Shown here in pieces: positions 11,066-34,038 of a DNA stretch of 64,000 nt. Every line of letters begins with the position of its first letter. Position 1 is the first letter of the stretch. The notes under the pieces were generated by a model. The model did not search any database. It saw only the letters and a list, made by a program, of their open reading frames with translations, and was not told where the DNA came from. The stretch lies in the IMG/VR virus record IMGVR_UViG_3300050821_003228, positions 33,818-97,817 of that record. The stretch is one strand, 5' to 3'. The DNA comes from a virus. The position numbers were made by a program, and so were the translations under genes.

Positions 11066-11305
11066 ATGTGGCGTTCATTTAAGGTGTTTACTGTAGGCAT
11101 TTCTTGGTTATTGGCGATGTTGTTTTTCGTCATTTCCCTTTACCTTGGTACACACGGCTTTCTCTTTGCTGGTGGATTGATTTTATTCTTTGGTGTTGGA
11201 TTGTGGTGTTTTTCTCGGGCACTTGAACAGGATTTAGTTAGAGAATCGGGCGATAAAGATGATGATGATCAAAATCCTACTACAACGATATATAAATTCG
11301 CTTGA
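11066..11305 (+). CDS. Two-helix membrane protein
   Basis: A 79-residue protein if started at the ATG at 11066 (site AAGGA); an upstream frame from 11000 overlaps the previous gene and lacks a ribosome site. Two adjacent transmembrane helices (about residues 5-27 and 30-50) are followed by an acidic tail (SGDKDDDDQN). Function unknown. Confidence 0.65.
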   Translation: MWRSFKVFTVGISWLLAMLFFVISLYLGTHGFLFAGGLILFFGVGLWCFSRALEQDLVRESGDKDDDDQNPTTTIYKFA

Positions 11306-11330
11306 CAATCGGGCGGTAATGGGGTATAAT
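11302..11330 (+). promoter_or_regulatory. Sigma70-type promoter for the first tRNA island
   Basis: TTGACA at 11302, 17-nt spacer, TATAAT at 11325. The downstream ATG at 11336 opens only a 7-codon ORF, so the promoter most likely serves the tRNAs that begin about 35 nt later. Confidence 0.8.
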
Positions 11331-11367: not shown

Positions 11368-11444
11368 TGTTTTGTCGTATAATTTGATAGTATGTCGCTC
11401 TGTTAAAGCGAAAGGTGCAGGTTTGAATCCTACCGAAACAGCCA
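11368..11444 (+). tRNA. tRNA-Asn(GTT)
   Basis: Acceptor TGTTTTG pairs with CGAAACA; discriminator G and encoded CCA. Anticodon arm TCGCT-CTGTTAA-AGCGA. T-loop TTTGAAT, with one C-A mismatch in the T stem. Confidence 0.85.
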
Positions 11445-11468
11445 AGTTGTTGATTGTAAAATATTTAC

Positions 11469-11551
11469 GGGCCGGACACCGAACGGTTTTGGTAGCAATC
11501 TGTTAAATTGCCGCGTAAGCATAGTTGGTTCGACCCCAACCCGGTTCGCCA
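11469..11551 (+). tRNA. tRNA-Asn(GTT), second copy with long variable region
   Basis: Acceptor GGGCCGG pairs with CCGGTTC using two G-U pairs; discriminator G, CCA encoded. Anticodon arm GCAAT-CTGTTAA-ATTGC; T arm GTTGG-TTCGACC-CCAAC. The variable region is about 12 nt, unusual for Asn. Confidence 0.75.
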
Positions 11552-11695
11552 TTTTAGTTAGTGTCTTTATCTTAAACAGTAATGTTTACTCCGAATTTAA
11601 AAGCGTGTTAATCGGGCCTTAACCCGAATGATTGTTAAGGTGGTCGGGAGGCTTTTCACTACACCGATGCTCTGAGAAAGCGTCAGTGAAAGCAA
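11552..11695 (+). other. Non-coding stretch with hairpins before the HNH gene
   Basis: Holds the hairpin TCGGG/CCCGA (11614-11629) and a long imperfect hairpin at 11651-11692 (GCTTTTCACT with AGTGAAAGC) whose tip reads ATGCT-CTGAGAA-AGCGT, exactly anticodon-arm sized (Leu GAG by position). No T arm or acceptor stem can be built around it. It may be a tRNA remnant or a leader structure of the HNH gene. Confidence 0.4.
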
Positions 11696-12037
11696 TTGCC
11701 ATACAAAGATGAAGGGTTACAAAAACTTGCTCAACATGAGCATTATTTAAGAAATAAAAAGTATTTTAAAGAAAGAACAAGATTAAGACGAAAACAGCAA
11801 AGAGCATGGTTTCAGGAATTAAAATCAAAATTGGTTTGTAGTAATTGTCCTGAACCTGATTCAATATGCCTAGATTTTCATCATCTTGATCCTAAAGATA
11901 AGAGCGATACTGTTTCAAAATTGGCAGCAGAATTACGAAATAAAGAAATAATTTTAAAAGAAATTGCTAAATGTATTGTTCTATGCTCTAATTGTCATAG
12001 AAAATTACATAGAGATGAATATCAGCCTGTTGGGTAA
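11696..12037 (+). CDS. HNH endonuclease
   Basis: A 113-residue protein starting at TTG; the N-terminus MPYKD is common in free-standing phage HNH proteins, which supports this start. Basic helical N-terminus, then CSNCP...CLDFHHLDP and CSNCHRKLH, giving the His of the HNH beta-beta-alpha-metal fold and two CxxC zinc pairs. Its last five codons overlap the acceptor and D arm of tRNA-Pro, so it is embedded in the tRNA island. Likely a selfish homing nuclease. Confidence 0.8.
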   Translation: MPYKDEGLQKLAQHEHYLRNKKYFKERTRLRRKQQRAWFQELKSKLVCSNCPEPDSICLDFHHLDPKDKSDTVSKLAAELRNKEIILKEIAKCIVLCSNCHRKLHRDEYQPVG

Positions 12038-12097
12038 TGGTAACCCCCAATCCTCGGACGATTGTATATGCAGATTCGACTTCTGTCAGGCTGACCA
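12023..12097 (+). tRNA. tRNA-Pro(CGG)
   Basis: Acceptor CAGCCTG/CAGGCTG, discriminator A, CCA encoded. D arm GGG...CCC; anticodon arm CAATC-CTCGGAC-GATTG; T-loop ATTCGAC region. Its 5' end overlaps the stop region of the HNH gene. Confidence 0.85.
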
Positions 12098-12098
12098 T

Positions 12099-12185
12099 AC
12101 GGGTGTAAAACGGTAGTTGGGAGCCGTCTCGCTTTGGAAGCGAGAGATAAGATCACTAGAGGTCCGAATCCTCTCACCCGTACCA
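12099..12185 (+). tRNA. tRNA-Pro(TGG)
   Basis: Acceptor ACGGGTG/CACCCGT, discriminator A, CCA. D stem ACGG/CCGT, anticodon arm CTCGC-TTTGGAA-GCGAG, T arm AGAGG-TCCGAAT-CCTCT. The variable region of about 13 nt is longer than usual for Pro. It begins one base after the previous tRNA ends. Confidence 0.8.
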
Positions 12186-12205
12186 TTTTCATAATGATCC
12201 TTGAA

Positions 12206-12235
12206 TTGACAAGGTTCTACCGGTTATGATAAACT
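12206..12235 (+). promoter_or_regulatory. Sigma70-type promoter, leaderless
   Basis: TTGACA at 12206, 18-nt spacer, TAAACT at 12230, then 6 nt to the ATG at 12242. Confidence 0.65.
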
Positions 12236-12241
12236 GGCATT

Positions 12242-12394
12242 ATGTTTGATAAAAGTATACAAACTGAATTAGAAGATTTGTGGAAGAAATTGAATCCATA
12301 TCCAGAAGGAAGTTACAAATGGTATGGATGGAGTTTAGAAGTAGATTGCGAGAATTATCAATTTGATAACACGGACAGTGAGCTAGTTAGGTAA
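12242..12394 (+). CDS. 50-residue protein between tRNAs
   Basis: Placed directly after a promoter with ATG 6 nt from the -10. The product MFDKSIQTELEDLWKKL... is acidic and Tyr/Trp-rich with no known motif. Its 3' end overlaps tRNA-Phe by 22 nt. Confidence 0.55.
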   Translation: MFDKSIQTELEDLWKKLNPYPEGSYKWYGWSLEVDCENYQFDNTDSELVR

Positions 12395-12448
12395 TAGCGT
12401 TCGGTTGAAGCCCGAAAGAACGGGGATCGTTACCTCGACTGTCCACCA
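12373..12448 (+). tRNA. tRNA-Phe(GAA)
   Basis: Acceptor GGACAGT/ACTGTCC, discriminator A, CCA. D stem GCTA/TAGC; anticodon arm TTCGG-TTGAAGC-CCGAA; T arm CGGGG-ATCGTTA-CCTCG. Confidence 0.85.
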
Positions 12449-12466
12449 TGTTTAAAAGGAAAAAAA

Positions 12467-12658
12467 TTGCTACAAATTTTAATAGTTTTAATTGTTGTAG
12501 GCGTTTTGTTGTGGTTAGTTAATACATACATCCCGATGGATGGTAAGATTAAGACGATTTTAAATGTTGTAGTAGTCATCTGTGTTGTTCTTTGGTTATT
12601 GAACGTTTTCGGTGTGCTCGGAATGGATGTGCCCGTTCCGCGTGTTCATCGTTATTAA
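12467..12658 (+). CDS. Thivi_2564-family small membrane protein
   Basis: A 63-residue protein with TTG start after AAAAGGAAAAAAA. Two transmembrane helices flank the motif NTYIPMDGKIKTILN, which is characteristic of the Thivi_2564-type small membrane proteins found in proteobacteria and phages. Cellular role unknown. It lies inside the tRNA island just upstream of the rRNA-like RNA. Confidence 0.75.
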   Translation: MLQILIVLIVVGVLLWLVNTYIPMDGKIKTILNVVVVICVVLWLLNVFGVLGMDVPVPRVHRY

Positions 12659-12660
12659 GG

Positions 12661-12863
12661 TTTTGATGGGAAGTTGGCTTAGAAGCAGCCATCTTTTAAA
12701 GAGTAGCACTGAACGTGGAACCACTTAAAAAATAGGGCACTCAATTTTAAAACCTATTTGATCCTATACAGGCGGTATAGGTTGAGGACAGTCCCGTATT
12801 GAGCGTTTCTCAGGACGGCCATTTGGCCGATAACACTTTTGGCGTAATAGCACACCATCAAAA
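12661..12863 (+). ncRNA. RNA mimicking the 23S rRNA GTPase-associated centre
   Basis: Outer stem TTTTGATGG (12661-12669) pairs perfectly with CCATCAAAA (12855-12863), like 23S helix 42. Inside, 12673-12693 is a 21-nt stretch identical, as I recall it, to the L11-binding hairpin H43 of bacterial 23S rRNA (loop TAGAAGC). It is followed by TTTTAAAGAGT, as in the H43/H44 junction. The H44 loop sequence GGCGTAATAGCACACC occurs at 12841-12856. Between the two halves of H44 is an insertion of about 135 nt with its own hairpins: CCTATAC/GTATAGG (12763-12781), CGGCC/GGCCG (12818-12831), CTCAAT/ATTGAG. It lies between Thivi_2564-like and tRNA-Tyr genes. Expected to fold like the L11/EF-G binding platform; function is inferred only. 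Confidence 0.75.
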
Positions 12864-12870
12864 AGTTTAT

Positions 12871-12958
12871 GCATTGGTTGGGCTAATGGTAGCCTCGCGC
12901 TCTGTAAAAGCGCCTCTCTTAGCGAGAATAGTGAGTTCAATTCTCACCCAATGCACCA
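12871..12958 (+). tRNA. tRNA-Tyr(GTA)
   Basis: Acceptor GCATTGG/CCAATGC, discriminator A, CCA. Anticodon arm GCGCT-CTGTAAA-AGCGC, long class II variable arm (CTCTCTTAGCGAGA), T arm GTGAG-TTCAATT-CTCAC. Confidence 0.92.
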
Positions 12959-12973
12959 TTTTAGGAGGAATGA

Positions 12974-13288
12974 TTGAAAGTAAAATTTGAACCGGCACCT
13001 AATAAAGTCCTTGTACGTGTGGCCGATCCTGTAACTATTACGAAAAACGGAATACATGTTCCAGATTCGGCCCAGATGAGGCCAATGGAGGGCGTCATAG
13101 TTAAAATCGGGCCAAATAGTGATACAGTGGATAAACTGACTAAGGGTGTTGTTCATGTCGAACCTCTTTGGAAAGAGAAGGATCACGTTCTATTCGGTAA
13201 GTATGACGGTATTGAAATCAGGATAGATGAAGAGGATTTCCTTCTTTTAAATCATGATCAGATTTTAGGTAAAAGGACAGGCAATTAG
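12974..13288 (+). CDS. groES: Co-chaperonin GroES
   Basis: A 104-residue protein with TTG start after AGGAGGAATGA. PAPNKVLVRVADP, the acidic mobile-loop region ITKNGIHVPDSAQ, EGVIVKIGP, and DHVLFGKYDG with EDFLLLNHDQILG follow the standard GroES order and length. No groEL is present in the window, so it should work with host GroEL, as T4 gp31 and other phage co-chaperonins do. It overlaps no gene and sits between tRNA-Tyr and tRNA-Asp. Confidence 0.92.
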   Translation: MKVKFEPAPNKVLVRVADPVTITKNGIHVPDSAQMRPMEGVIVKIGPNSDTVDKLTKGVVHVEPLWKEKDHVLFGKYDGIEIRIDEEDFLLLNHDQILGKRTGN

Positions 13289-13353
13289 TTAATTGACATA
13301 ACCTTCGGCCCTGAACCGAAAAAAGAACGTTTGATTCGTTCATTGCCTACCAC

Positions 13354-13429
13354 GGTGCGGTAGTTTAACTGTTAAAATGCTTTCCTGTCACGAAAGACGA
13401 TGCGGGTTAGAATCCCGTCGGCACCGCCA
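13354..13429 (+). tRNA. tRNA-Asp(GTC)
   Basis: Acceptor GGTGCGG with CGGCACC (one G-G mismatch), discriminator G, CCA. Anticodon arm CTTTC-CTGTCAC-GAAAG; T arm GCGGG-TTAGAAT-CCCGT. Confidence 0.88.
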
Positions 13430-13437
13430 TAATTTAG

Positions 13438-13466
13438 TTGACAAAATGGTTTAAAAATAGTAAGAT
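13438..13466 (+). promoter_or_regulatory. Sigma70-type promoter of the Ro60-like gene
   Basis: TTGACA at 13438, 17-nt spacer, TAAGAT at 13461. The predicted start near 13473 coincides with the first base of the Y-RNA-like leader stem. Confidence 0.8.
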
Positions 13467-13471
13467 TGATC

Positions 13472-13538
13472 TTGACGTGGTGAAGAGTAGAGTTACTTCT
13501 CGATTAGAAAAAACACTCTACTCGTTTGTTCCCGTCAT
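13472..13538 (+). ncRNA. Y-RNA-like element in the 5' leader of the Ro60-like mRNA
   Basis: Outer stem TGACG (13473-13477) with CGTCA (13533-13537), then conserved GTGGTGA on the 5' side and TTTGTTCCC on the 3' side, enclosing a perfect inner stem GAGTAGAG/CTCTACTC (13485-13492 with 13516-13523) and the loop start TTACTTC. The same elements occur in the same order in the three RNAs at 14995, 15161 and 16341, but here the tRNA-like module is absent. It ends 12 nt before the GGAGGA ribosome site of the Ro gene, a good position for autoregulation by Ro binding (inference). Confidence 0.6.
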
Positions 13539-13558
13539 TTAATTTTCTCGGAGGAGAT

Positions 13559-14947
13559 ATGTCGTCAGTCAATACAGCTACAAAGACAGCAAAATATACG
13601 CATGAAGGCGCGAAGGCGTCTAATATTACGAAGAAACAAGAGCTTCGCCGTAGTGTTACAGCTTGTATGCTTTGGGAGAACACCTTCTATGAAGATGGAA
13701 AGGCGATTGCTGACCGTATCAAGGAATTAGTTCATCAGCTTCCCGGCCAATTTGTTTCAGAATTGGCAATTGAAGCGCGTGAGAAGATGAAACTTCGTCA
13801 CGTTCCGCTGTTCCTAGTTCGTGAATTGGCCCGTCATCCTAAGAAGGCTGAACGACAGTTTGTATCAGATACATTGGCCCGAGTAATTCAACGTCCTGAT
13901 GAATTGACTGAGTATATTGCAATTTATTGGAAAGACGGTAAAGAACCGTTGTCTGCTCAATCCAAACTTGGATTAGCAAAAGCGTTTCTGAAGTTTAACG
14001 AATATAGCTTTGCTAAGTACACCCGTGATGGCGCTGTGAAGCTTCGTGACGCATTGTTCTTATCCCACGCAAAGCCGGGCACGAAGGAACAAGAGAAACT
14101 GTTCAAGAAGATCGTAGATAACACTCTTGTTACTCCTGATACTTGGGAAGTCGCACTTTCAGGTGGGGCCGATAAGAAAGAGACGTTTACTCGATTGCTG
14201 AAAGAGGGCAAGCTTGGTGCATTGGCTCTATTGCGTAATCTACGTAACATGAGTGAAGCCGGGGTATCAACCGAGTTAGTTACAGAGTCATTAGAGAATT
14301 TGGATGTCATTCGCGTACTGCCGTTTAGATTTATTTCTGCCGCGAAGTATGCTCCACAACTTGAATCAGTTCTAGAGAAGACAATGTTTAAAGCGTTGGA
14401 AAGTCATCCTGAATTGCCGGGCAAAACTGTAATGATTGTTGATGTCTCTGGCTCAATGGGCGGCAATGTTTCTGGTAAGTCAGAAATTGGACGAGTTGAT
14501 GCTGCTGCATCTTTAGCAATTCTTCTTCGTGAAATTTGTGAAGATTTTTCAATTTATGCAACAGCGGGTAATGATTATAGTCGTATTCATAAAACGGCAT
14601 TGATTCCTTCACGTCATGGTTTTGCACTGAAAGATTCAATTTTGAAGTCCAAAAATGAATTGGGTGGTGGGGGAATATTTTTGAAACAAGTTATGGATTA
14701 TGTTTATAACTTGGAAAAAAGCAATGATGTCGCTCGTATCATAGTAATTACTGATGAACAAGATTGTGATACTGATCCGGCTAAATCGCCGTCAAAAGCA
14801 AATACGTTTGGTGCTAATAATTATCTGATAAATATAGCTAATGAGAAAAATGGCATTGGCTATGATAAATGGGTTCATATTGATGGTTTTTCTGAAGCAG
14901 TAATAGATTACATTCAAGCCTTTGAAGATCAAGGCGATGAAGATTAA
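13559..14947 (+). CDS. rsr: TROVE-domain Ro60-like RNA-binding protein
   Basis: A 462-residue protein. The start at 13559 has CTCGGAGGAGAT in front; a longer frame from 13526 runs back into the leader RNA. Residues about 20-280 are the helical HEAT-like TROVE ring (HVPLFLVRELARHPKK, LGALALLRNLRNM, VLPFRFISAAKY), and residues about 290-462 a von Willebrand A domain with MIDAS motif DVSGSMG (295-301) and ITDEQDCD. Ro60 orthologues (Rsr) bind Y RNAs and misfolded RNAs and act in RNA quality control and ribosomal RNA decay. Bacterial and some phage Ro genes lie next to their Y RNAs, as here. Confidence 0.93.
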   Translation: MSSVNTATKTAKYTHEGAKASNITKKQELRRSVTACMLWENTFYEDGKAIADRIKELVHQLPGQFVSELAIEAREKMKLRHVPLFLVRELARHPKKAERQFVSDTLARVIQRPDELTEYIAIYWKDGKEPLSAQSKLGLAKAFLKFNEYSFAKYTRDGAVKLRDALFLSHAKPGTKEQEKLFKKIVDNTLVTPDTWEVALSGGADKKETFTRLLKEGKLGALALLRNLRNMSEAGVSTELVTESLENLDVIRVLPFRFISAAKYAPQLESVLEKTMFKALESHPELPGKTVMIVDVSGSMGGNVSGKSEIGRVDAAASLAILLREICEDFSIYATAGNDYSRIHKTALIPSRHGFALKDSILKSKNELGGGGIFLKQVMDYVYNLEKSNDVARIIVITDEQDCDTDPAKSPSKANTFGANNYLINIANEKNGIGYDKWVHIDGFSEAVIDYIQAFEDQGDED

Positions 14948-14954
14948 AACGTAT

Positions 14955-14990
14955 GAAGCGGATTAACCGCTGATTTCAAGTTACCGCTTC
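14955..14990 (+). other. Hairpin directly after the Ro60-like gene
   Basis: GAAGCGG..TAAC pairs with GTTA CCGCTTC, an 11-bp stem starting 8 nt after the Ro stop codon. No T-run follows, so it is more likely a 3' mRNA protector or an RNase processing site separating mRNA from the next RNA than a terminator. Confidence 0.5.
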
Positions 14991-14994
14991 GCAA

Positions 14995-15089
14995 GTTTGC
15001 GTGGTGATAGGTTGTAGTTACTTCTTACTGAAAAAAAGGAAGTTGGGTGAAATCCCCGACATACCTGCAATCGCATGTTCCCGCAATTA
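14995..15089 (+). ncRNA. Y-RNA-like RNA A, downstream of the Ro60-like gene
   Basis: Outer stem TTGCG (14997-15001) with CGCAA (15082-15086); conserved TGGTGA and CGCATGTTCCC; inner stem GGTTGTAG/CTGCAATC (15010-15017 with 15065-15072), playing the part of an acceptor stem. Inside are TTACTTC forming a D-arm-like hairpin (ACTTC/GAAGT, 15020-15043) and a T-arm-like hairpin GTTGGG/CCCGAC (15042-15060). This matches the architecture of bacterial YrlA-type Y RNAs (Ro-binding stem plus tRNA-like module). Confidence 0.7.
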
Positions 15090-15160
15090 ATTTAGAGTGT
15101 AGACGCACGATAAAATGTTAAGGTTTTACGGTAGTCCTTGAAATAAACCGTCTAAGTTTA

Positions 15161-15273
15161 TTTGTGATGGCGTAGAATGCAGATACTTCTCTTACTTAAA
15201 GAGACTGTGTGGTTCGATTCCATAAGTAAGGATGGTTCCTAGTCATTTCTGTAATCGCTTGTTCCTCACAATT
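15161..15273 (+). ncRNA. Y-RNA-like RNA B with canonical T-arm mimic
   Basis: Outer stem TTGTGA (15162-15167) with TCACAA (15266-15271), conserved TGGCGTA and CGCTTGTTCC, inner stem GAATGCAG/CTGTAATC (15175-15182 with 15249-15256; one A-A mismatch). The module contains ATACTTC and a T arm TGTGG-TTCGATT-CCATA (15208-15224) whose loop is a textbook TPsiC loop, although no complete tRNA can be folded. It lies 70 nt after RNA A. Confidence 0.7.
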
Positions 15274-15287
15274 ATTTGTGTTATAAT
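15259..15287 (+). promoter_or_regulatory. Promoter of the ClpP-like gene, overlapping Y-like RNA B
   Basis: TTGTTC at 15259 (part of the RNA's conserved 3' strand), 17-nt spacer, TATAAT at 15282. Confidence 0.55.
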
Positions 15288-15319
15288 CACTATAGTAAAT
15301 TCAATTAAAGGATAACAAA

Positions 15320-16120
15320 TTGAGCAAAGTATTGGATGCTGCTACAAAGCTTGTAACTAAAGAGGAAGCTGAAACTGAAAAATTATTGAGTGAAGCGGCA
15401 TTGCGTCGTTTTCGTCTTGAATCGGAGAGAAAGAATGGCCCGAAAGAAGATGAACTGATTCTTGCCCGTCGTCAGGCTGAAGTTGAAAAAATTAAGAATG
15501 AGTCTCAGAAGGCCCACTTTGAAGCGGCCTGTGCGGAATTGATTTTCAATAACGCAAAACGTGAAGAAGATAAGATTCTGACTGGCGACCGTTATAACAA
15601 AGTTTATCGCTTTGTTCATGAAGTTTGTCATGAATCTGTCGCTGACTGTATGATGATTCTTTCTCGTTGGTCGCGTCTTGAGCCGGAATGTGCGATGGAA
15701 ATCGTATTCTGTTCGCCCGGTGGAAGCATTATTGACGGTTTCGCTCTTTTCGATTTTATCCAAGATTTGAAAGCAAAGGGCCATAAGGTCACTACAAAAT
15801 CAATCGGTTATGCTGCAAGTATGGCAGGTGTATTGTTACAGGCCGGAAGTGATCGAGTGATGGGCCGTGAATCGTGGCTTTTGATTCATGAAGCTTCATT
15901 CTTTGCGATGGGTAAAATCGGCGCGGTTGATGATACGGTTGAATGGATCAAAAGGATGTGTGATCGTATTGTAGACATTTTCGCTGAACGTGCATCCGAG
16001 AAAACTGGAAAATCAGTAAAGGCAATTCGGGCAACAATTAAAAAGAATTGGCTTCGTAAAGATTGGTGGCTTTCTGCTGACGAGGCGCTAGAGTACGGTT
16101 TTTGTGATCGTATTAGTTAG
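15320..16120 (+). CDS. ClpP-like serine protease with N-terminal coiled coil
   Basis: A 266-residue protein with TTG start after AAAGGATAAC. Residues about 10-85 are a charged coiled coil not found in standard ClpP. The protease domain follows: oxyanion strand SPGGSI (132-137), catalytic Ser167 in SIGYAASMAG, His190 in LLIHEAS, and the C-terminal LSADEALEYGFCDRI typical of ClpP. Such phage enzymes are annotated as Clp protease or head maturation protease. No capsid genes lie nearby, and a Clp-type ATPase is encoded at 34.8-35.8 kb, so either role is possible. Confidence 0.85.
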   Translation: MSKVLDAATKLVTKEEAETEKLLSEAALRRFRLESERKNGPKEDELILARRQAEVEKIKNESQKAHFEAACAELIFNNAKREEDKILTGDRYNKVYRFVHEVCHESVADCMMILSRWSRLEPECAMEIVFCSPGGSIIDGFALFDFIQDLKAKGHKVTTKSIGYAASMAGVLLQAGSDRVMGRESWLLIHEASFFAMGKIGAVDDTVEWIKRMCDRIVDIFAERASEKTGKSVKAIRATIKKNWLRKDWWLSADEALEYGFCDRIS

Positions 16121-16128
16121 GAGAGAAT

Positions 16129-16338
16129 ATGTCAGTTAATGAAGCAATAATGTTTATACATCCGCTAGATTTTGTAAGAATGCTGAATCATCGTGATGGT
16201 CCGATTGATATTATATTTCGGAAATTACACGGTCTTCAGGTGAATGAAGTTAATGGTGTAATATATTATCAAACGGTTGAAGTGCCAGAAACGCTTCAAG
16301 ATGCAGAACCGGCCAACTGTTGGCCGTATAAATTTTAA
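16129..16338 (+). CDS. Hypothetical protein after the ClpP-like gene
   Basis: A 69-residue protein, ribosome site TAGGAGAGAAT, 8 nt after the protease stop. No known motif. Probably cotranscribed with the protease. Confidence 0.6.
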   Translation: MSVNEAIMFIHPLDFVRMLNHRDGPIDIIFRKLHGLQVNEVNGVIYYQTVEVPETLQDAEPANCWPYKF

Positions 16339-16340
16339 AG

Positions 16341-16439
16341 TTTGTAGTGGTGATTGATAGAGATACTTCAAGGTGAAAGTTGACTAATACTCAACGTGCT
16401 GTCGAAAGCACAAGCCTCTGTCGCTTGTTCCCTACAATT
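16341..16439 (+). ncRNA. Y-RNA-like RNA C with full cloverleaf-like module
   Basis: Outer stem TTGTAG (16342-16347) with CTACAA (16432-16437); conserved TGGTGA and CGCTTGTTCCC. A 7-bp acceptor-like stem GATAGAG/CTCTGTC (16356-16362 with 16416-16422) encloses ATACTTC with a D-arm-like hairpin carrying GG in its loop (16364-16380), an anticodon-arm-like hairpin GTTGA-CTAATAC-TCAAC (16379-16395) and a T-arm-like hairpin GTGCT-GTCGAA-AGCAC (16396-16411). It lacks the continuity of a real tRNA and no CCA end exists, as in tRNA-mimicking YrlA RNAs. Confidence 0.7.
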
Positions 16440-16446
16440 AAGTTTT

Positions 16447-16521
16447 GCCCGTATCGTCTAAAGATAAGGCCCACGCCCGATTAGCGTGAGATGATCGGTT
16501 TAATTCCGACTACGGGTACCA
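16447..16521 (+). tRNA. tRNA-Ile(GAT) by position, atypical anticodon loop
   Basis: Acceptor GCCCGTA/TACGGGT (first pair G-U), discriminator A, CCA. D stem GTCT/AGGC. Anticodon arm CACGC-CCGATTA-GCGTG: position 33 is C instead of the nearly universal U, and position 37 is T. T stem TCGG/CCGA with loop TTTAATT. Identity is uncertain. Confidence 0.65.
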
Positions 16522-16523
16522 AT

Positions 16524-16598
16524 GCTCGGCTAGTAGAGTGGCTATAACACTTCTCCTACAAAGAAGAGAGCAAGGTTCGATTCCTTGGCTGAGTACCA
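16524..16598 (+). tRNA. tRNA-Val(TAC), C at position 33
   Basis: Acceptor GCTCGGC with GCTGAGT (two G-U pairs), discriminator A, CCA. D stem GTAG/CTAT; anticodon arm CTTCT-CCTACAA-AGAAG (C33); T arm CAAGG-TTCGATT-CCTTG. Confidence 0.8.
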
Positions 16599-16599
16599 T

Positions 16600-16928
16600 T
16601 TTTATTGAGGCAATAACTCGGCACCTGACTGAATAAGGATTGCCAGTCCTCAAAGTATGGGATAGCTAACCGAGAGGTTACTATTCTAGTTGTTGCGTAA
16701 TCGCTACATAAAGGTCTAAATAGTGGCTCTAGATCGAGAGCCATGACGTAAGGACACGACAAATCGTCTATTATACATAGAGATGGCTGTATCGTGCTGT
16801 GAGTAACCATACTCACCAGACATTAACTGTTAGAGTAATTACCTAACAGGTCTGTGACCGAATAATGAGGCGTTTACTGCGAACTTATGGGTATTCTCAA
16901 ATCCCATGATGCTGAGTTATTGCCTCTA
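16600..16928 (+). ncRNA. Large multi-hairpin structured RNA between tRNAs
   Basis: A perfect 13-bp closing stem joins GAGGCAATAACTC (16607-16619) to 16914-16926. Inside are at least five strong hairpins: TAACC-GAGA-GGTTA, TGGCTCT/AGAGCCA, GTGAGT/ACTCAC, CAGAC(..)CTGTTAG/CTAACAG(..)GTCTG and ATGGG/CCCAT. No ORF of note runs through it. Its size and location in a phage tRNA island recall large ornate RNAs such as ROOL and GOLLD, but no match to them is recognised, nor to RNase P, tmRNA or 6S RNA. Confidence 0.7.
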
Positions 16929-16929
16929 T

Positions 16930-17005
16930 ACCGGGATCGTTCAACATCCGAGGACGGTTGCCTTTGAAGCAATTTATCTAGGTTGGAATCCTAGTTCCGG
17001 TGCCA
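16930..17005 (+). tRNA. tRNA-Gln(TTG)
   Basis: Acceptor ACCGGGA/TTCCGGT, discriminator G, CCA. Anticodon arm GTTGC-CTTTGAA-GCAAT; T arm CTAGG-TTGGAAT-CCTAG. Confidence 0.85.
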
Positions 17006-23518: not shown

Positions 23519-23593
23519 GAGGCTAGGGTATGACTGGCGGTGCCACAGGTTTCCACCCTGTAGAGTCCGATTCGATTTCGGATAGCCTCTCCA
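23519..23593 (+). tRNA. tRNA-Gly(TCC)
   Basis: Acceptor GAGGCTA/TAGCCTC, discriminator T, CCA; anticodon arm ACAGG-TTTCCAC-CCTGT; T stem TCCGA/TCGGA. Confidence 0.9.
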
Positions 23594-23597
23594 TTTT

Positions 23598-23672
23598 GGG
23601 CGCGCACCTTCTGGTGAAGGCTCAAGTTTGTGAAGCTTGTAGAAATACATTCGATTTGTAGCGTGCCCTCCA
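23598..23672 (+). tRNA. tRNA-His(GTG)
   Basis: Acceptor GGGCGCG/CGTGCCC, CCA encoded; anticodon arm CAAGT-TTGTGAA-GCTTG. The discriminator is T and no G-1 is encoded, unlike standard tRNA-His (G-1:C73). Confidence 0.8.
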
Positions 23673-23677
23673 TTTTT

Positions 23678-23753
23678 GGATATGTCGTATAAAGATAAAT
23701 ACTCTGTTTTCGTAAAACAGCTAATGTCGGCTCAATCCCGGCCATATCCTCCA
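23678..23753 (+). tRNA. tRNA-Thr(CGT)
   Basis: Acceptor GGATATG/CATATCC, discriminator T, CCA; anticodon arm CTGTT-TTCGTAA-AACAG; T arm GTCGG-CTCAATC-CCGGC. Confidence 0.88.
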
Positions 23754-23828
23754 GTAGATATAATATAATGGCTATTATAATTTCTTGGTAAGAAATTTAT
23801 ATGCGTTCGATTCGCATTATCGGCTCCA
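23754..23828 (+). tRNA. tRNA-Thr(GGT)
   Basis: Acceptor GTAGATA with TATCGGC (one mismatch), discriminator T, CCA; anticodon arm ATTTC-TTGGTAA-GAAAT; T arm ATGCG-TTCGATT-CGCAT. Abuts the previous tRNA. Confidence 0.85.
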
Positions 23829-23829
23829 T

Positions 23830-23903
23830 GCACTTGTAGCATAATGAAATGCCCCATACTTGTAATATGGCTTATGTCGGCCCATTGCCGATCAAGTGCT
23901 CCA
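23830..23903 (+). tRNA. tRNA-Thr(TGT)
   Basis: Acceptor GCACTTG/CAAGTGC, discriminator T, CCA; anticodon arm CCATA-CTTGTAA-TATGG; T stem GTCGG/CCGAT with atypical loop CCCATTG. Completes a Thr set of three anticodons. Confidence 0.85.
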
Positions 23904-23911
23904 TTTTTATT

Positions 23912-23986
23912 GCGGGAATAGCTCAGAGGCAGAGCACAACATTGCCAATGTTGAGGTCGCGGTTTCAACATCCGTTTCCCGCTCCA
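23912..23986 (+). tRNA. tRNA-Gly(GCC)
   Basis: Acceptor GCGGGAA/TTCCCGC, discriminator T, CCA; anticodon arm CAACA-TTGCCAA-TGTTG. Confidence 0.88.
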
Positions 23987-23987
23987 T

Positions 23988-24064
23988 ATGCCGTTGGCGA
24001 AGAGGTCAAACGCGGAAAGCTACAACCTTTCTAATCAGGGGTTCGACTCCCTTACGGCATTCCA
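23988..24064 (+). tRNA. tRNA with anticodon ACA by position (Cys codon UGU)
   Basis: Acceptor ATGCCGT/ACGGCAT, discriminator T, CCA; D stem GCG/CGC; anticodon arm GAAAG-CTACAAC-CTTTC; T arm AGGGG-TTCGACT-CCCTT. A34 is very rare in bacterial tRNAs outside Arg(ACG), so the decoding identity is uncertain. Confidence 0.65.
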
Positions 24065-24069
24065 TTTTT

Positions 24070-24150
24070 ATGTTTGAATTTATATTAATGATTTTAGCTA
24101 ATTTGGCCCATAGAATCGGGCCGGAATATCCTAATTATAAACAAGATTAA
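24070..24150 (+). CDS. Possible 26-residue peptide between tRNAs
   Basis: ATG-started ORF (MFEFILMILANLAHRIG...) filling the gap between two tRNAs. No ribosome site or promoter is visible, so expression is doubtful. Confidence 0.25.
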   Translation: MFEFILMILANLAHRIGPEYPNYKQD

Positions 24151-24151
24151 T

Positions 24152-24225
24152 AGGTGATTGATGTAATGGAAGCATGACAGTCTCCAAAACTGTTCGTAAG
24201 GGTTCAAGTCCTTTATCATCTGCCA
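24152..24225 (+). tRNA. tRNA-Trp(CCA)
   Basis: Acceptor AGGTGAT/ATCATCT, discriminator G, CCA; anticodon arm ACAGT-CTCCAAA-ACTGT; T arm AAGGG-TTCAAGT-CCTTT. Confidence 0.9.
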
Positions 24226-24228
24226 TTT

Positions 24229-24369
24229 ATGGGCAAAGCTAATAAAATGCCTTATGTACCGACAGAATGGGCTAAACATCTTCGCCCGTTTCTGAAACGG
24301 CTGTTCTGGAAGAAAGTTCGCCGTAAAACGAAAGAATTGACAAATCGAGTAAAGGATGATATAAGTTAA
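24229..24369 (+). CDS. 46-residue highly basic peptide
   Basis: MGKANKMPYVPTEWAKHLRPF followed by a Lys/Arg-rich helix (FLKRLFWKKVRRKTKELTNRV). Fills the space between tRNA-Trp and the HNH gene. No ribosome site is evident; could bind nucleic acid or membrane. Confidence 0.45.
   Translation: MGKANKMPYVPTEWAKHLRPFLKRLFWKKVRRKTKELTNRVKDDIS
24337..24365 (+). promoter_or_regulatory. Sigma70-type promoter, leaderless
   Basis: TTGACA at 24337, 17-nt spacer, TATAAG at 24360, 6 nt to the ATG at 24372 of the HNH gene. Confidence 0.75.
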
Positions 24370-24371
24370 AT

Positions 24372-24878
24372 ATGCAAGACTGTTTAGTGGTGGATTCAAC
24401 ACATCGGCCCATCGCTTACTGCTCTTGGATGGAAGCGGTCAAACTTTATTATGAAGGTGTAGCGGACATTATTAAAGAGGATGCTGAGAAAGAAATACAC
24501 TCGCCCTCTGTAACAATGAAGGTTCCAAGAGTTATAGCAATTAGGAATTACGTCTCGAAGAGATTCGGGCGCGATACTATAACACTTACAAGACGTAATA
24601 TTGCTATCCGTGATGAACGAAAATGTCAGTACTGCGGGCTGGAATTAAGTAATGATGAACAAACGCTTGATCACGTTATTCCCCGTTCTCGCGGCGGCAA
24701 GAGTTCATGGGATAACCTTATATTATGTTGCAAGCCATGTAACCGCTTAAAGGCAGATTTAACTGTTGAAGAAGCAGGAATGAAATTGTTAAGCATTCCA
24801 AAGAAACCCAAACCGGGAGTGCAGTACCGAGGAATCGGGCACGTTAGACCGGAATGGGCCGATTACGAGAGGAATTAG
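24372..24878 (+). CDS. HNH endonuclease (McrA/5-methylcytosine-type HNH)
   Basis: A 168-residue protein. N-terminal domain with VDSTHRPI..CSWMEAVKLYYEG and KVPRVIAIRNYV, then CQYCG, LDHVIPRSRGGKSSWDNLILCC and KPCNRLKADLT, the standard HNH core with zinc CxxC pairs. This type (HNH family with N-terminal VL..N..P...W..A) is common in bacteria and phages. Its stop overlaps the first base of the following tRNA. Confidence 0.85.
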   Translation: MQDCLVVDSTHRPIAYCSWMEAVKLYYEGVADIIKEDAEKEIHSPSVTMKVPRVIAIRNYVSKRFGRDTITLTRRNIAIRDERKCQYCGLELSNDEQTLDHVIPRSRGGKSSWDNLILCCKPCNRLKADLTVEEAGMKLLSIPKKPKPGVQYRGIGHVRPEWADYERN

Positions 24879-24952
24879 GCTGTTTAGCTCAAAGATGGAG
24901 CAAGCGTCTCATTAACGCAAGGCTATTGGTTTAAATCCAATAACAGCCACCA
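24878..24952 (+). tRNA. tRNA with CAT anticodon (elongator Met or Ile2)
   Basis: Acceptor GGCTGTT/AACAGCC, discriminator A, CCA; D stem GCTC/GAGC; anticodon loop CTCATTA on stem GCGT/ACGC; T arm TATTG-GTTTAAAT-CAATA. A paired 1:72 rules out initiator. Met versus lysidine-modified Ile cannot be settled from sequence. Confidence 0.82.
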
Positions 24953-24956
24953 AGTC

Positions 24957-25113
24957 GGGCCGGGGAGAGAGGTTAAATGGGAACTATGCCTATTCTCACA
25001 AGTGATTCCCACAACGGTCCATCAATTTTTGAGTAGCCCACATTGCTGAGGCAAGGCCAGCCCAAAGATAAACGGAAGAGAAAGCACCACAGCCTAGCGC
25101 CGTTTCTCAAAAA
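24957..25113 (+). ncRNA. Two-domain structured RNA between two CAT tRNAs
   Basis: Domain 1: GGGCCG (24957-24962) with CGGTCC (25015-25020), enclosing TGGGAA/TTCCCA (24978-24983 with 25006-25011). Domain 2: TTTTTGAG (25026-25033) with CTCAAAAA (25106-25113), extended inside by AAACGG/CCGTTT. No ORF and no known family recognised. Confidence 0.5.
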
Positions 25114-25124
25114 CCAATTTTTAT

Positions 25125-25201
25125 GGCGAGTTAGTAGCGTAGGACAATACGAGAGGCTCATAACCTCTAAACGGTGCGTGCAAATCCACCACTCGCAACC
25201 A
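25125..25201 (+). tRNA. Initiator-like tRNA-fMet(CAT)
   Basis: Anticodon arm AGAGG-CTCATAA-CCTCT. The 3' end CTCGCAACCA makes pair 1:72 a G-A mismatch, the hallmark unpaired position of initiators (C-A in E. coli). Only two of the three conserved G-C pairs of the anticodon stem are kept; T arm irregular. Confidence 0.75.
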
Positions 25202-25216
25202 ATTTAGTTGTACAAT

Positions 25217-25248
25217 AGTTACTAGGGAGAGAAACAGCTTCCTAGTAA
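25217..25248 (+). other. Hairpin between tRNAs
   Basis: GTTACTAGG pairs with CCTAGTAAC across a 14-nt loop. No T-run follows. Probably a processing signal within the tRNA transcript. Confidence 0.5.
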
Positions 25249-25258
25249 CAGCGCGTTT

Positions 25259-25336
25259 GTGGAATTAGTTTAAATGGCTTAGAACCCTTGACTTTCAATC
25301 AGGAAGATGCGAGTTCGACTCTCGTATTCCACACCA
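25259..25336 (+). tRNA. tRNA-Glu(TTC)
   Basis: Acceptor GTGGAAT/ATTCCAC, discriminator A, CCA; anticodon arm CTTGA-CTTTCAA-TCAGG; T arm GCGAG-TTCGACT-CTCGT. Confidence 0.85.
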
Positions 25337-25344
25337 AAATTTAT

Positions 25345-25434
25345 GGATAACGGGCAGGACGGGTAATGCAATGTCCTGCTAAGTCATGATAACCGAAAGG
25401 TTATAACCGAGTTCGACTCTCGGGTTATCCGCCA
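25345..25434 (+). tRNA. tRNA-Ser(GCT)
   Basis: Acceptor GGATAAC/GTTATCC, discriminator G, CCA; anticodon loop CTGCTAA on stem ATGTC/GTCAT (one mismatch); class II variable arm ATAACC-GAAA-GGTTAT; T arm CCGAG-TTCGACT-CTCGG. Confidence 0.88.
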
Positions 25435-25435
25435 C

Positions 25436-25528
25436 GGAAGGTACCGCTGAGAGGTCAGCAATTGGCTTTGAACACCAAGGAAACCGTATGCACTACGGTT
25501 TAGCGTTCGACTCGTTTATCTTCCGCCA
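25436..25528 (+). tRNA. tRNA-Ser(TGA)
   Basis: Acceptor GGAAGGT/ATCTTCC, discriminator G, CCA; anticodon loop TTTGAAC on stem TTGG/CCAA; class II variable arm AACCGTA/TACGGTT; T-loop TTCGACT. Confidence 0.88.
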
Positions 25529-25529
25529 C

Positions 25530-25603
25530 GAAGCTGTCATCTAATGATAGGATAGAACTTTCTCAAGGTTTTAATACGGGTTTGACTCCCGTCAGCTTCA
25601 CCA
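25530..25603 (+). tRNA. tRNA-Glu(CTC)
   Basis: Acceptor GAAGCTG/CAGCTTC, discriminator A, CCA; D stem ATC/GAT; anticodon arm GAACT-TTCTCAA-GGTTT (G-U rich); T arm ACGGG-TTTGACT-CCCGT. Confidence 0.83.
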
Positions 25604-33538: not shown

Positions 33539-34038
33539 GTTTAAACAAAGATAACGCTTTATCAAAGGAAACCGAATACCGCAAGAAATACGGTCCGCGA
33601 TATACGTATTTATTTAAATGTTCTGAACCAGAATGCACTAAAATAATAAGAGTTAGAAGTGATTATCTTAACCGATCATCGGGTCAATGTAATATTCATT
33701 CTCATCAAAAACGTCCATTTGAAAGTTTATATAACTCATTATATAACGATTGGCGCGGTACTGAAGTAACCTTAACTTATGAAGAGTTTTTAGAATTTAC
33801 AAAAATTAAAAAATGTCATTATTGCAGTTATGGTATTTTGTGGATTCCATTTGGAACGGTAGCGGGAGAGTACAAATCAAGAGCATATTACTTAGATAGA
33901 AAAAATCATAATGAAGGGTACACTAAAGAAAATTGTGTTGTTTGTTGTTCTAAATGCAACATCATTAGGCGGGACCACTTTACATATGAACAATTTTTAG
34001 AAATTGGTAAATTAATAAATAAATGGCGTATTGAATAA
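33535..34038 (+). CDS. HNH endonuclease overlapping the RNR stop codon
   Basis: 167 residues from a GTG that overlaps the RNR stop (GTGA). CSEPECTK near the N-terminus, CHYCSYG, YYLDRKNHNEGYTKENCVVCCSKCN. This is the same subfamily as the gene at 38411 (IDRKDNNLGYTKENCVICCTQCN), pointing to two members of one mobile family in this genome. Confidence 0.82.
   Translation: MSLNKDNALSKETEYRKKYGPRYTYLFKCSEPECTKIIRVRSDYLNRSSGQCNIHSHQKRPFESLYNSLYNDWRGTEVTLTYEEFLEFTKIKKCHYCSYGILWIPFGTVAGEYKSRAYYLDRKNHNEGYTKENCVVCCSKCNIIRRDHFTYEQFLEIGKLINKWRIE

Follow-up and report, generated by a model that had tools for sequence, protein, structure and literature searches.

We analyzed a 64,000-nucleotide (nt) stretch of viral DNA, hereafter "the window" (IMG/VR record IMGVR_UViG_3300050821_003228, positions 33,818 to 97,817), drawn from a 97.8-kb viral contig with ribonucleotide reductase and primase/helicase. 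At positions 12661-12863 on the + strand, inside a tRNA array, lies an element whose parts follow the order of the GTPase-associated center (GAC) of E. coli 23S rRNA throughout. An earlier reading made from the letters alone (the "sequence-only reading") had proposed such a copy, and its coordinates were all confirmed. The element is closed by a helix equivalent to H42, in which the 5' strand TTTTGATGG (12661-12669; E. coli 1047-1055) pairs perfectly over 9 bp with the 3' strand CCATCAAAA (12855-12863; 1104-1112). Inside this helix stands the equivalent of H43, the L11-binding hairpin (12671-12695; 1057-1081), recognized by a 21-nt identity to 23S rRNA, a match to the large-subunit rRNA (LSU) model and covariation. 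The identical stretch is GTTGGCTTAGAAGCAGCCATC at 12673-12693; in E. coli 23S, GGCTTAGAAGCAGCC begins at position 1062. The junction and the 5' strand of H44 follow at 12696-12704 (1082-1090, with A1084, A1085, G1087, A1088 and U1090), and TTTAAAGAGT occupies 12695-12704. A variable structured insert of 133 nt (12705-12837) then separates positions 1090 and 1091. After the insert come a UUUG linker that is absent from rRNA (12838-12841) and the H44 loop hairpin with its 3' strand (12842-12854; 1091-1103), in which GCGTAATAGC occupies 12842-12851 and A1101 replaces the U of rRNA. All these parts lie on the + strand. The claims of a 21-nt H43 identity, a junction and an H44 loop in the right order, a perfectly paired closing helix and a structured insertion within H44 thus hold when set against E. 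coli 23S.

The minimum free energy (MFE) fold of the window element is a closed structure with H43, a GCGUAAUAGC hairpin and a structured insert, at -58.6 kcal/mol (z = -2.9; none of 200 shuffled sequences reached so low an energy). The sequence-only reading had also named, as a supporting check, a significant LSU-model match of both halves around the insertion. The Rfam bacterial LSU model does find the 5' half (12669-12709, 23.3 bits, E=1.6e-5 on the window; 28.4 bits, E=3.3e-8 on the phage record), but the window match lies under the Rfam gathering score and the 3' half is not joined to it, because the insert separates the two. In the phage records that it matches, the LSU model finds the GAC only, with no hit over the gathering score, and the remaining 23S domains of a functional large-subunit rRNA are absent.

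The window element belongs to a phage RNA family with a wide distribution. We recovered at least 164 loci with both arms from IMG/VR and isolated phages, which bears out the expectation of covarying homologues in phage and metagenome contigs. A pattern for the 3' arm alone matched at least 119 viral stretches, and a pattern for the 5' arm alone matched 72. Among the 119 listed viral stretches matched by the 3' arm alone, 102 have the 5' GAC arm at a distance of 70-413 nt upstream, so the significance of the match does not depend on one sequence. The carriers, many of them large bacterial viruses rich in tRNAs, include the jumbo phages XacN1, GAP32, CBB and BF, as well as Otagovirus, pf16, Aeromonas 4_4572 and others. 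Searching isolated phages with blastn returned both halves in XacN1, Astolliot, Kaldavass, Serratia BF, several Erwinia phages and XbC2, with inserts unrelated in sequence between the matched halves. It returned the 5' half in GAP32, CBB, pf16, ME3, Aeromonas 4_4572, Milchi, UNO-G1W1 and Vibrio 2.275.O, and on reading these loci the 3' half was also present. The gene is usually single-copy: the pattern finds one copy in 20 of 21 genomes, and the Vibrio copy has diverged beyond what it can match. A candidate from Paenibacillus Pd_22F (L012) was rejected as true rRNA.

In bacterial genome contigs from about 85,000 species there were only 25 matches to the 3' pattern. About 13 of these are real, in Clostridia isolates and mixed metagenome-assembled genomes, on contigs that may be prophages or phage-plasmids, and about 10 have no 5' arm and look like chance; we also set aside L208, which has a typical insert end with no 5' arm found, and L198, a poor match with 8 mismatches. 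The best plasmid match is a genuine element (L220, 3001-3300; CP136011.1), carried on a 909-kb plasmid of Pseudomonas sp. FeN3W inside a dense array of 12 tRNAs in 6 kb. Most other plasmid matches are apparently true rRNA, with short 5'-arm matches at rRNA-like identity.

The constant part of these RNAs is the 58-nt GAC fold of 23S rRNA, kept by compensatory change. We measured covariation and conservation on 120 distinct sequences, and the values are not corrected for phylogeny. The closing-helix pairs 1047-1053/1106-1112 can pair in 73-90% of sequences, versus 38-50% with shuffled partners; over the whole helix the range is 73-99%, and for the 1047-1053 register, 83% are paired versus 34-45% when the partner strand is slid. 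The sequence-only reading had held that the closing helix, whose sequence is not that of rRNA, is under selection for the fold. The helix does covary and most of it varies freely, but two G-C pairs at its inner end, 1054-1105 and 1055-1104, hardly change. The H43 helices (1057-1059/1079-1081 and 1062-1064/1074-1076, with a 9-nt loop) are paired in 96-100% of sequences. Pairing at 1058-1080 is complete (100%) across GC (43), UA (41), AU (31) and CG (2); the junction pair 1082-1086 occurs as UA (76), CG (26) and AU (11), and 1057-1081 as AU (105) and CG (13). The first base pair of the insert helix is paired in 98% of sequences, versus 61% when shuffled.

The same fold emerges when no structure is supplied. 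Ranking all pairs of core columns by mutual information gave 1058-1080, 1051-1108, 1052-1107, 1082-1086, 1053-1106, 1054-1105, 1050-1109 and 1057-1081 as the top eight, all of them GAC base pairs, with a wide gap to the ninth. U1060, A1084, A1085, G1087, A1088 and U1090 are invariant in 120 of 120 sequences. The tertiary pair U1060-A1088 never varies, so it is consistent with the GAC fold but not independently proven.

Separate patterns had recovered the two arms, which let us assess conservation in each arm free of bias from having selected on it, using 35 loci found via the 5' arm only and 74 found via the 3' arm only. In the 35 loci, the three positions of the UUU linker are kept in 35, 35 and 33. 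Positions 1091-1100 are mostly near-invariant in this set (1096 is A or G, 1097 U or C); C1092, G1093 and A1098-A1101 are essentially invariant, and A1101 is present in 35 of 35. H44 is thus there as in the GAC, with G1087-C1102, the short helix 1091-1092/1099-1100 and the loop GUAAUA at 1093-1098. In the 74 loci, the H43 core is essentially invariant, and G1059 and C1079 are invariant too. Position 1067 is variable (A in 57, G in 13, C in 4), and G1068 varies as well. As a control, we sampled true rRNA by a pattern search with the rest of the motif fixed; in this small sample (n=20), AGA stood at 1067-1069 in 20 of 20 copies.

All homologues share the insertion point at 1090/1091, and the inserts range from 25 to 365 nt (median 149), falling into 73 sequence clusters among 135. 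In the minimal member (L112) a hairpin of just 25 nt makes up the insert, which marks the GAC and not the insert as essential. One group of inserts has an ACCCC-GNRA-like-GGUAAG hairpin and another has GGGGAAGGACAAG. We also observed that an ACCCC-(GNRA or UAAC)-YGGUAAG hairpin recurs directly before the UUUGG linker in about 20 members (e.g., L006, L023, L132), flanked by a GNC/GNC stem that covaries by eye; it is probably a tertiary-contact motif. Apart from the match described next, additional pieces of 16S, 23S or 5S rRNA in the inserts are no better than in shuffled inserts. Nor did any intron model match over the elements in the window and 18 related loci; one unrelated group I intron lies in L061.

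Five long members (L061, L099, L118, L213, L214) carry UAGUAC(GAGA/GGGA/AGAA)GGA hairpins resembling the sarcin-ricin loop, the other half of the ribosome's GTPase center. These members are about 45-64% identical to each other and their complementary flanking helices differ; two of them share 13 identical nt with the 23S sarcin-ricin loop. L213 and L214 were recovered with a pattern in which the motif was obligatory. Of the six new matches to that pattern, four (L215-L218) are apparently unrelated and have no 5' arm. Since shuffled inserts also give 13-nt rRNA matches somewhere, the sarcin-ricin reading rests on site and hairpin context only. In these RNAs an upstream GUACUA could instead pair with the hairpin's 5' strand. 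We regard the joining of a GAC and a sarcin-ricin hairpin in one RNA as suggestive and tentative. The window element has no AGUACGAGAGGA sarcin-ricin hairpin.

Several traits common to the members are absent from the rRNA consensus: the 1090/1091 insert site, the UUU linker, and an A at 1101 in place of the U of the LSU consensus. Because these traits are shared, the family most simply reflects a single ancient capture or invention and not repeated recent acquisition of host rRNA.

In the window, ARAGORN calls tRNA-Asn, -Pro and -Phe upstream of the element, with tRNA-Phe ending at 12448, about 210 nt ahead. A tRNA-Tyr gene follows directly on the + strand (12871-12958), and tRNA-Gln and -Asp lie further downstream. 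A candidate sigma-70 promoter, TTGACA-17-TATAAT (12/12 consensus), lies before the first tRNA of the array at 11302-11330 on the + strand, and a second candidate (10/12, extended TG) lies at 12206-12235; both are pattern matches only. In all, the window has 19 tRNA genes in two arrays (11368-17005 and 23519-25603), one of which, at 23988-24064, was called with an odd Cys anticodon (aca). Across the family, a tRNA lies within 20 nt of the element in 52 of 141 loci, versus 19% for positions drawn at random from those loci; as such regions are rich in tRNAs in any case, the enrichment is modest. In 84 loci a tRNA lies within 500 nt, and in every one of the 84 the nearest shares the element's strand. 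We note that tRNA-Pyl was called near the element in L133, L149 and L176 (ARAGORN), possibly a stop-codon suppressor tRNA.

We found no constant protein neighbor; HNH endonucleases recur most, in 12-13 loci. Nor was there a ribosomal-protein gene downstream, the neighbors being tRNAs and variable genes. With neither present, the RNA probably acts in trans. A Ro60/TROVE-like RNA-binding protein is encoded about 660 nt downstream in the window (13526-14947, + strand; Pfam TROVE E=1.5e-14, PHROG 850), and TROVE occurs in 5 of 48 element-bearing records, the window and four others. Other observations nearby include GroES-like (Cpn10) and ClpP-like phage proteins in the tRNA region of the window (12974-13288 and 15320-16120, both + strand), a DUF2828/DUF7788 protein with a VWA-like match (L204, 2070-3593), proteins that by eye resemble an RNA-repair polynucleotide kinase-phosphatase-ligase near the element in Clostridial members (L202, 2522-4714; L180), and a 2'-5' RNA ligase annotated just upstream of the element in XacN1 (L002).

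Transfer RNAs and certain ribosomal proteins are known from phage genomes; to our knowledge, no phage RNA that copies a ribosomal functional center has been described. At gathering score, Rfam 15 gave no match in the window and none over the element in 18 related loci, and we found no report of such an RNA in the literature searched, with preprints and most subscription journals outside its coverage; within these bounds, the earlier statement that no phage example had been described still stands. The closest known structure is the 23S GAC itself (H42-H44, about 1051-1108; RF02541), which shares the H43 hairpin, the 1082-1086 pair, U1060/A1088, G1087-C1102, the GUAAUA loop of H44 and a closing helix at the corresponding position. 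The phage RNA differs in standing alone in tRNA arrays, in its 25-365 nt insert at 1090/1091, in the UUUG linker and A1101, in an H42 of unrelated sequence and in having none of the rest of the rRNA. GOLLD and ROOL are likewise large structured RNAs of unknown function from phages and bacteria, located in tRNA-rich regions, but neither the window nor the 18 related loci yielded an Rfam match to either family, and we know of no GAC in the descriptions of GOLLD or ROOL. Leaders of ribosomal-protein operons (the L1 site of the L11-L1 operon, the L10 leader) mimic protein sites of rRNA (PMC10931766) and so also imitate such a site off the ribosome. They are cis-acting, however, and sit upstream of ribosomal-protein genes, whereas the phage RNA has no such gene downstream. 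As an investment in the takeover of host translation, the RNA resembles phage tRNA arrays, bL12 and bS21, the last reported in phages (PMC9723584), but here the device is an RNA mimic, neither protein nor tRNA.

We propose that the RNA binds host L11 (uL11) off the ribosome and blunts L11-dependent functions such as RelA activation, a reading drawn from sequence to which we give about an even chance. The sequence-only reading had listed titration of L11, of translation factors or of RelA-linked signaling, and a decoy role; among these we single out L11 capture as the likeliest. The copied part is what L11 recognizes in the L11-RNA structures. G1059, U1060, C1079, A1084, A1085, G1087 and A1088 build the L11-bound fold, and A1067 and G1068 lie on the surface for factors and thiostrepton. 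The invariance of the L11-fold core, set against the variation at A1067 and G1068, favors L11 rather than translation factors as the bound partner. Missing from the copy is the outer part of H42, the binding site of L10 and the L12 stalk, along with its sequence. None of 21 phage records, the window's own included, has an L11 gene, which makes a phage partner unlikely; for phage L12 there was only one partial match.

The RNA gene stands alone and is probably cotranscribed with the tRNA array and trimmed out as a tRNA would be, its constant part folding as the 23S GAC outside the ribosome. Under L11 capture, the intact L11 site would bind host L11 and divert new or exchangeable L11 from the 50S subunit. 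Ribosomes poor in L11 would continue protein synthesis and lose RelA activation. Since ribosome-dependent RelA activation requires L11 (PMC4974054), such capture would damp the (p)ppGpp stringent response in infection, and L11-dependent release-factor and GTPase functions may shift too. The variable insert could be a lineage-specific add-on, either a fold stabilizer or a second contact, e.g., the sarcin-ricin-like hairpin.

Several points weigh against L11 capture. L11 is abundant and mostly ribosome-bound, so titration would need very high RNA levels or would have to act on newly made L11. The conserved H44 loop and most of the 1065-1073 loop would be equally expected if the target were an elongation factor or another reader of the GAC; as these loops also build the tertiary fold, conservation there is ambiguous. 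The sarcin-ricin hairpin of some members hints at factor binding, and a pure L11 sponge leaves the retention of large structured inserts unexplained. One alternative, which we consider unlikely, is that the RNA mimics the GTPase site as a decoy that traps or misdirects EF-G, EF-Tu, IF2, RF3 or RelA, or absorbs a toxin or defense effector. Retention of most of the H43 loop and of the H44 loop with A1095 would fit such a decoy, as would the five divergent long members, in which a sarcin-ricin-like hairpin and the GAC together present both halves of the GTPase center. However, most members have no such hairpin, the hairpin has its alternative GUACUA pairing, and 13-nt rRNA matches turn up in shuffled inserts as well; moreover, A1067 and G1068 are more variable than the L11-fold core, and H42 lacks the L10-stalk portion through which factors are recruited.

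The large inserts could also be the working part of a ribonucleoprotein scaffold, with the GAC serving as a handle for host L11 and the insert binding, e.g., a Ro60/TROVE protein, or acting in packaging. A constant GAC joined to hypervariable structured inserts (the 73 clusters among 135), together with the TROVE/Ro60-like gene close by in the window and in four more of the 48 records, is what this proposal would expect. Yet inserts of 25 nt occur, TROVE is found in only 5 of the 48 records and no neighbor gene is constant, and we rate the scaffold as quite improbable. A scrap of rRNA, a pseudogene, an intron flank or an assembly artifact would account for the short 23S identity, but this explanation is refuted by the covariation and we see almost no room for it. 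The homologues show compensatory changes, shared derived traits and hypervariable inserts over at least 164 loci, no intron model matches within the element, and no further rRNA piece is present in the phage genomes tested. The sequence-only reading was right to prefer an organized GAC mimic over a random scrap, and its concern about misassembly is answered by the element's presence in many complete isolate genomes.

Taken together with its possible variants, we lean somewhat toward a free-standing mimic of the GTPase center, accompanied in some lineages by the sarcin-ricin loop, that would seize L11 and/or factors and thereby turn the stringent response off or reprogram ribosomes, a viral decoy of a ribosomal functional center. 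If L11 is captured, the family would give viruses a new means of disabling the stringent response or adjusting host ribosomes. It would also be a naturally occurring relative of the 58-nt RNA that has long served as a model in biophysics. The family also shows, through an independent natural alignment, which nucleotides of the GAC are required when the fold stands by itself. As it is widespread, makes a clear prediction (L11 binding) and has culturable phage carriers, a direct test is possible.
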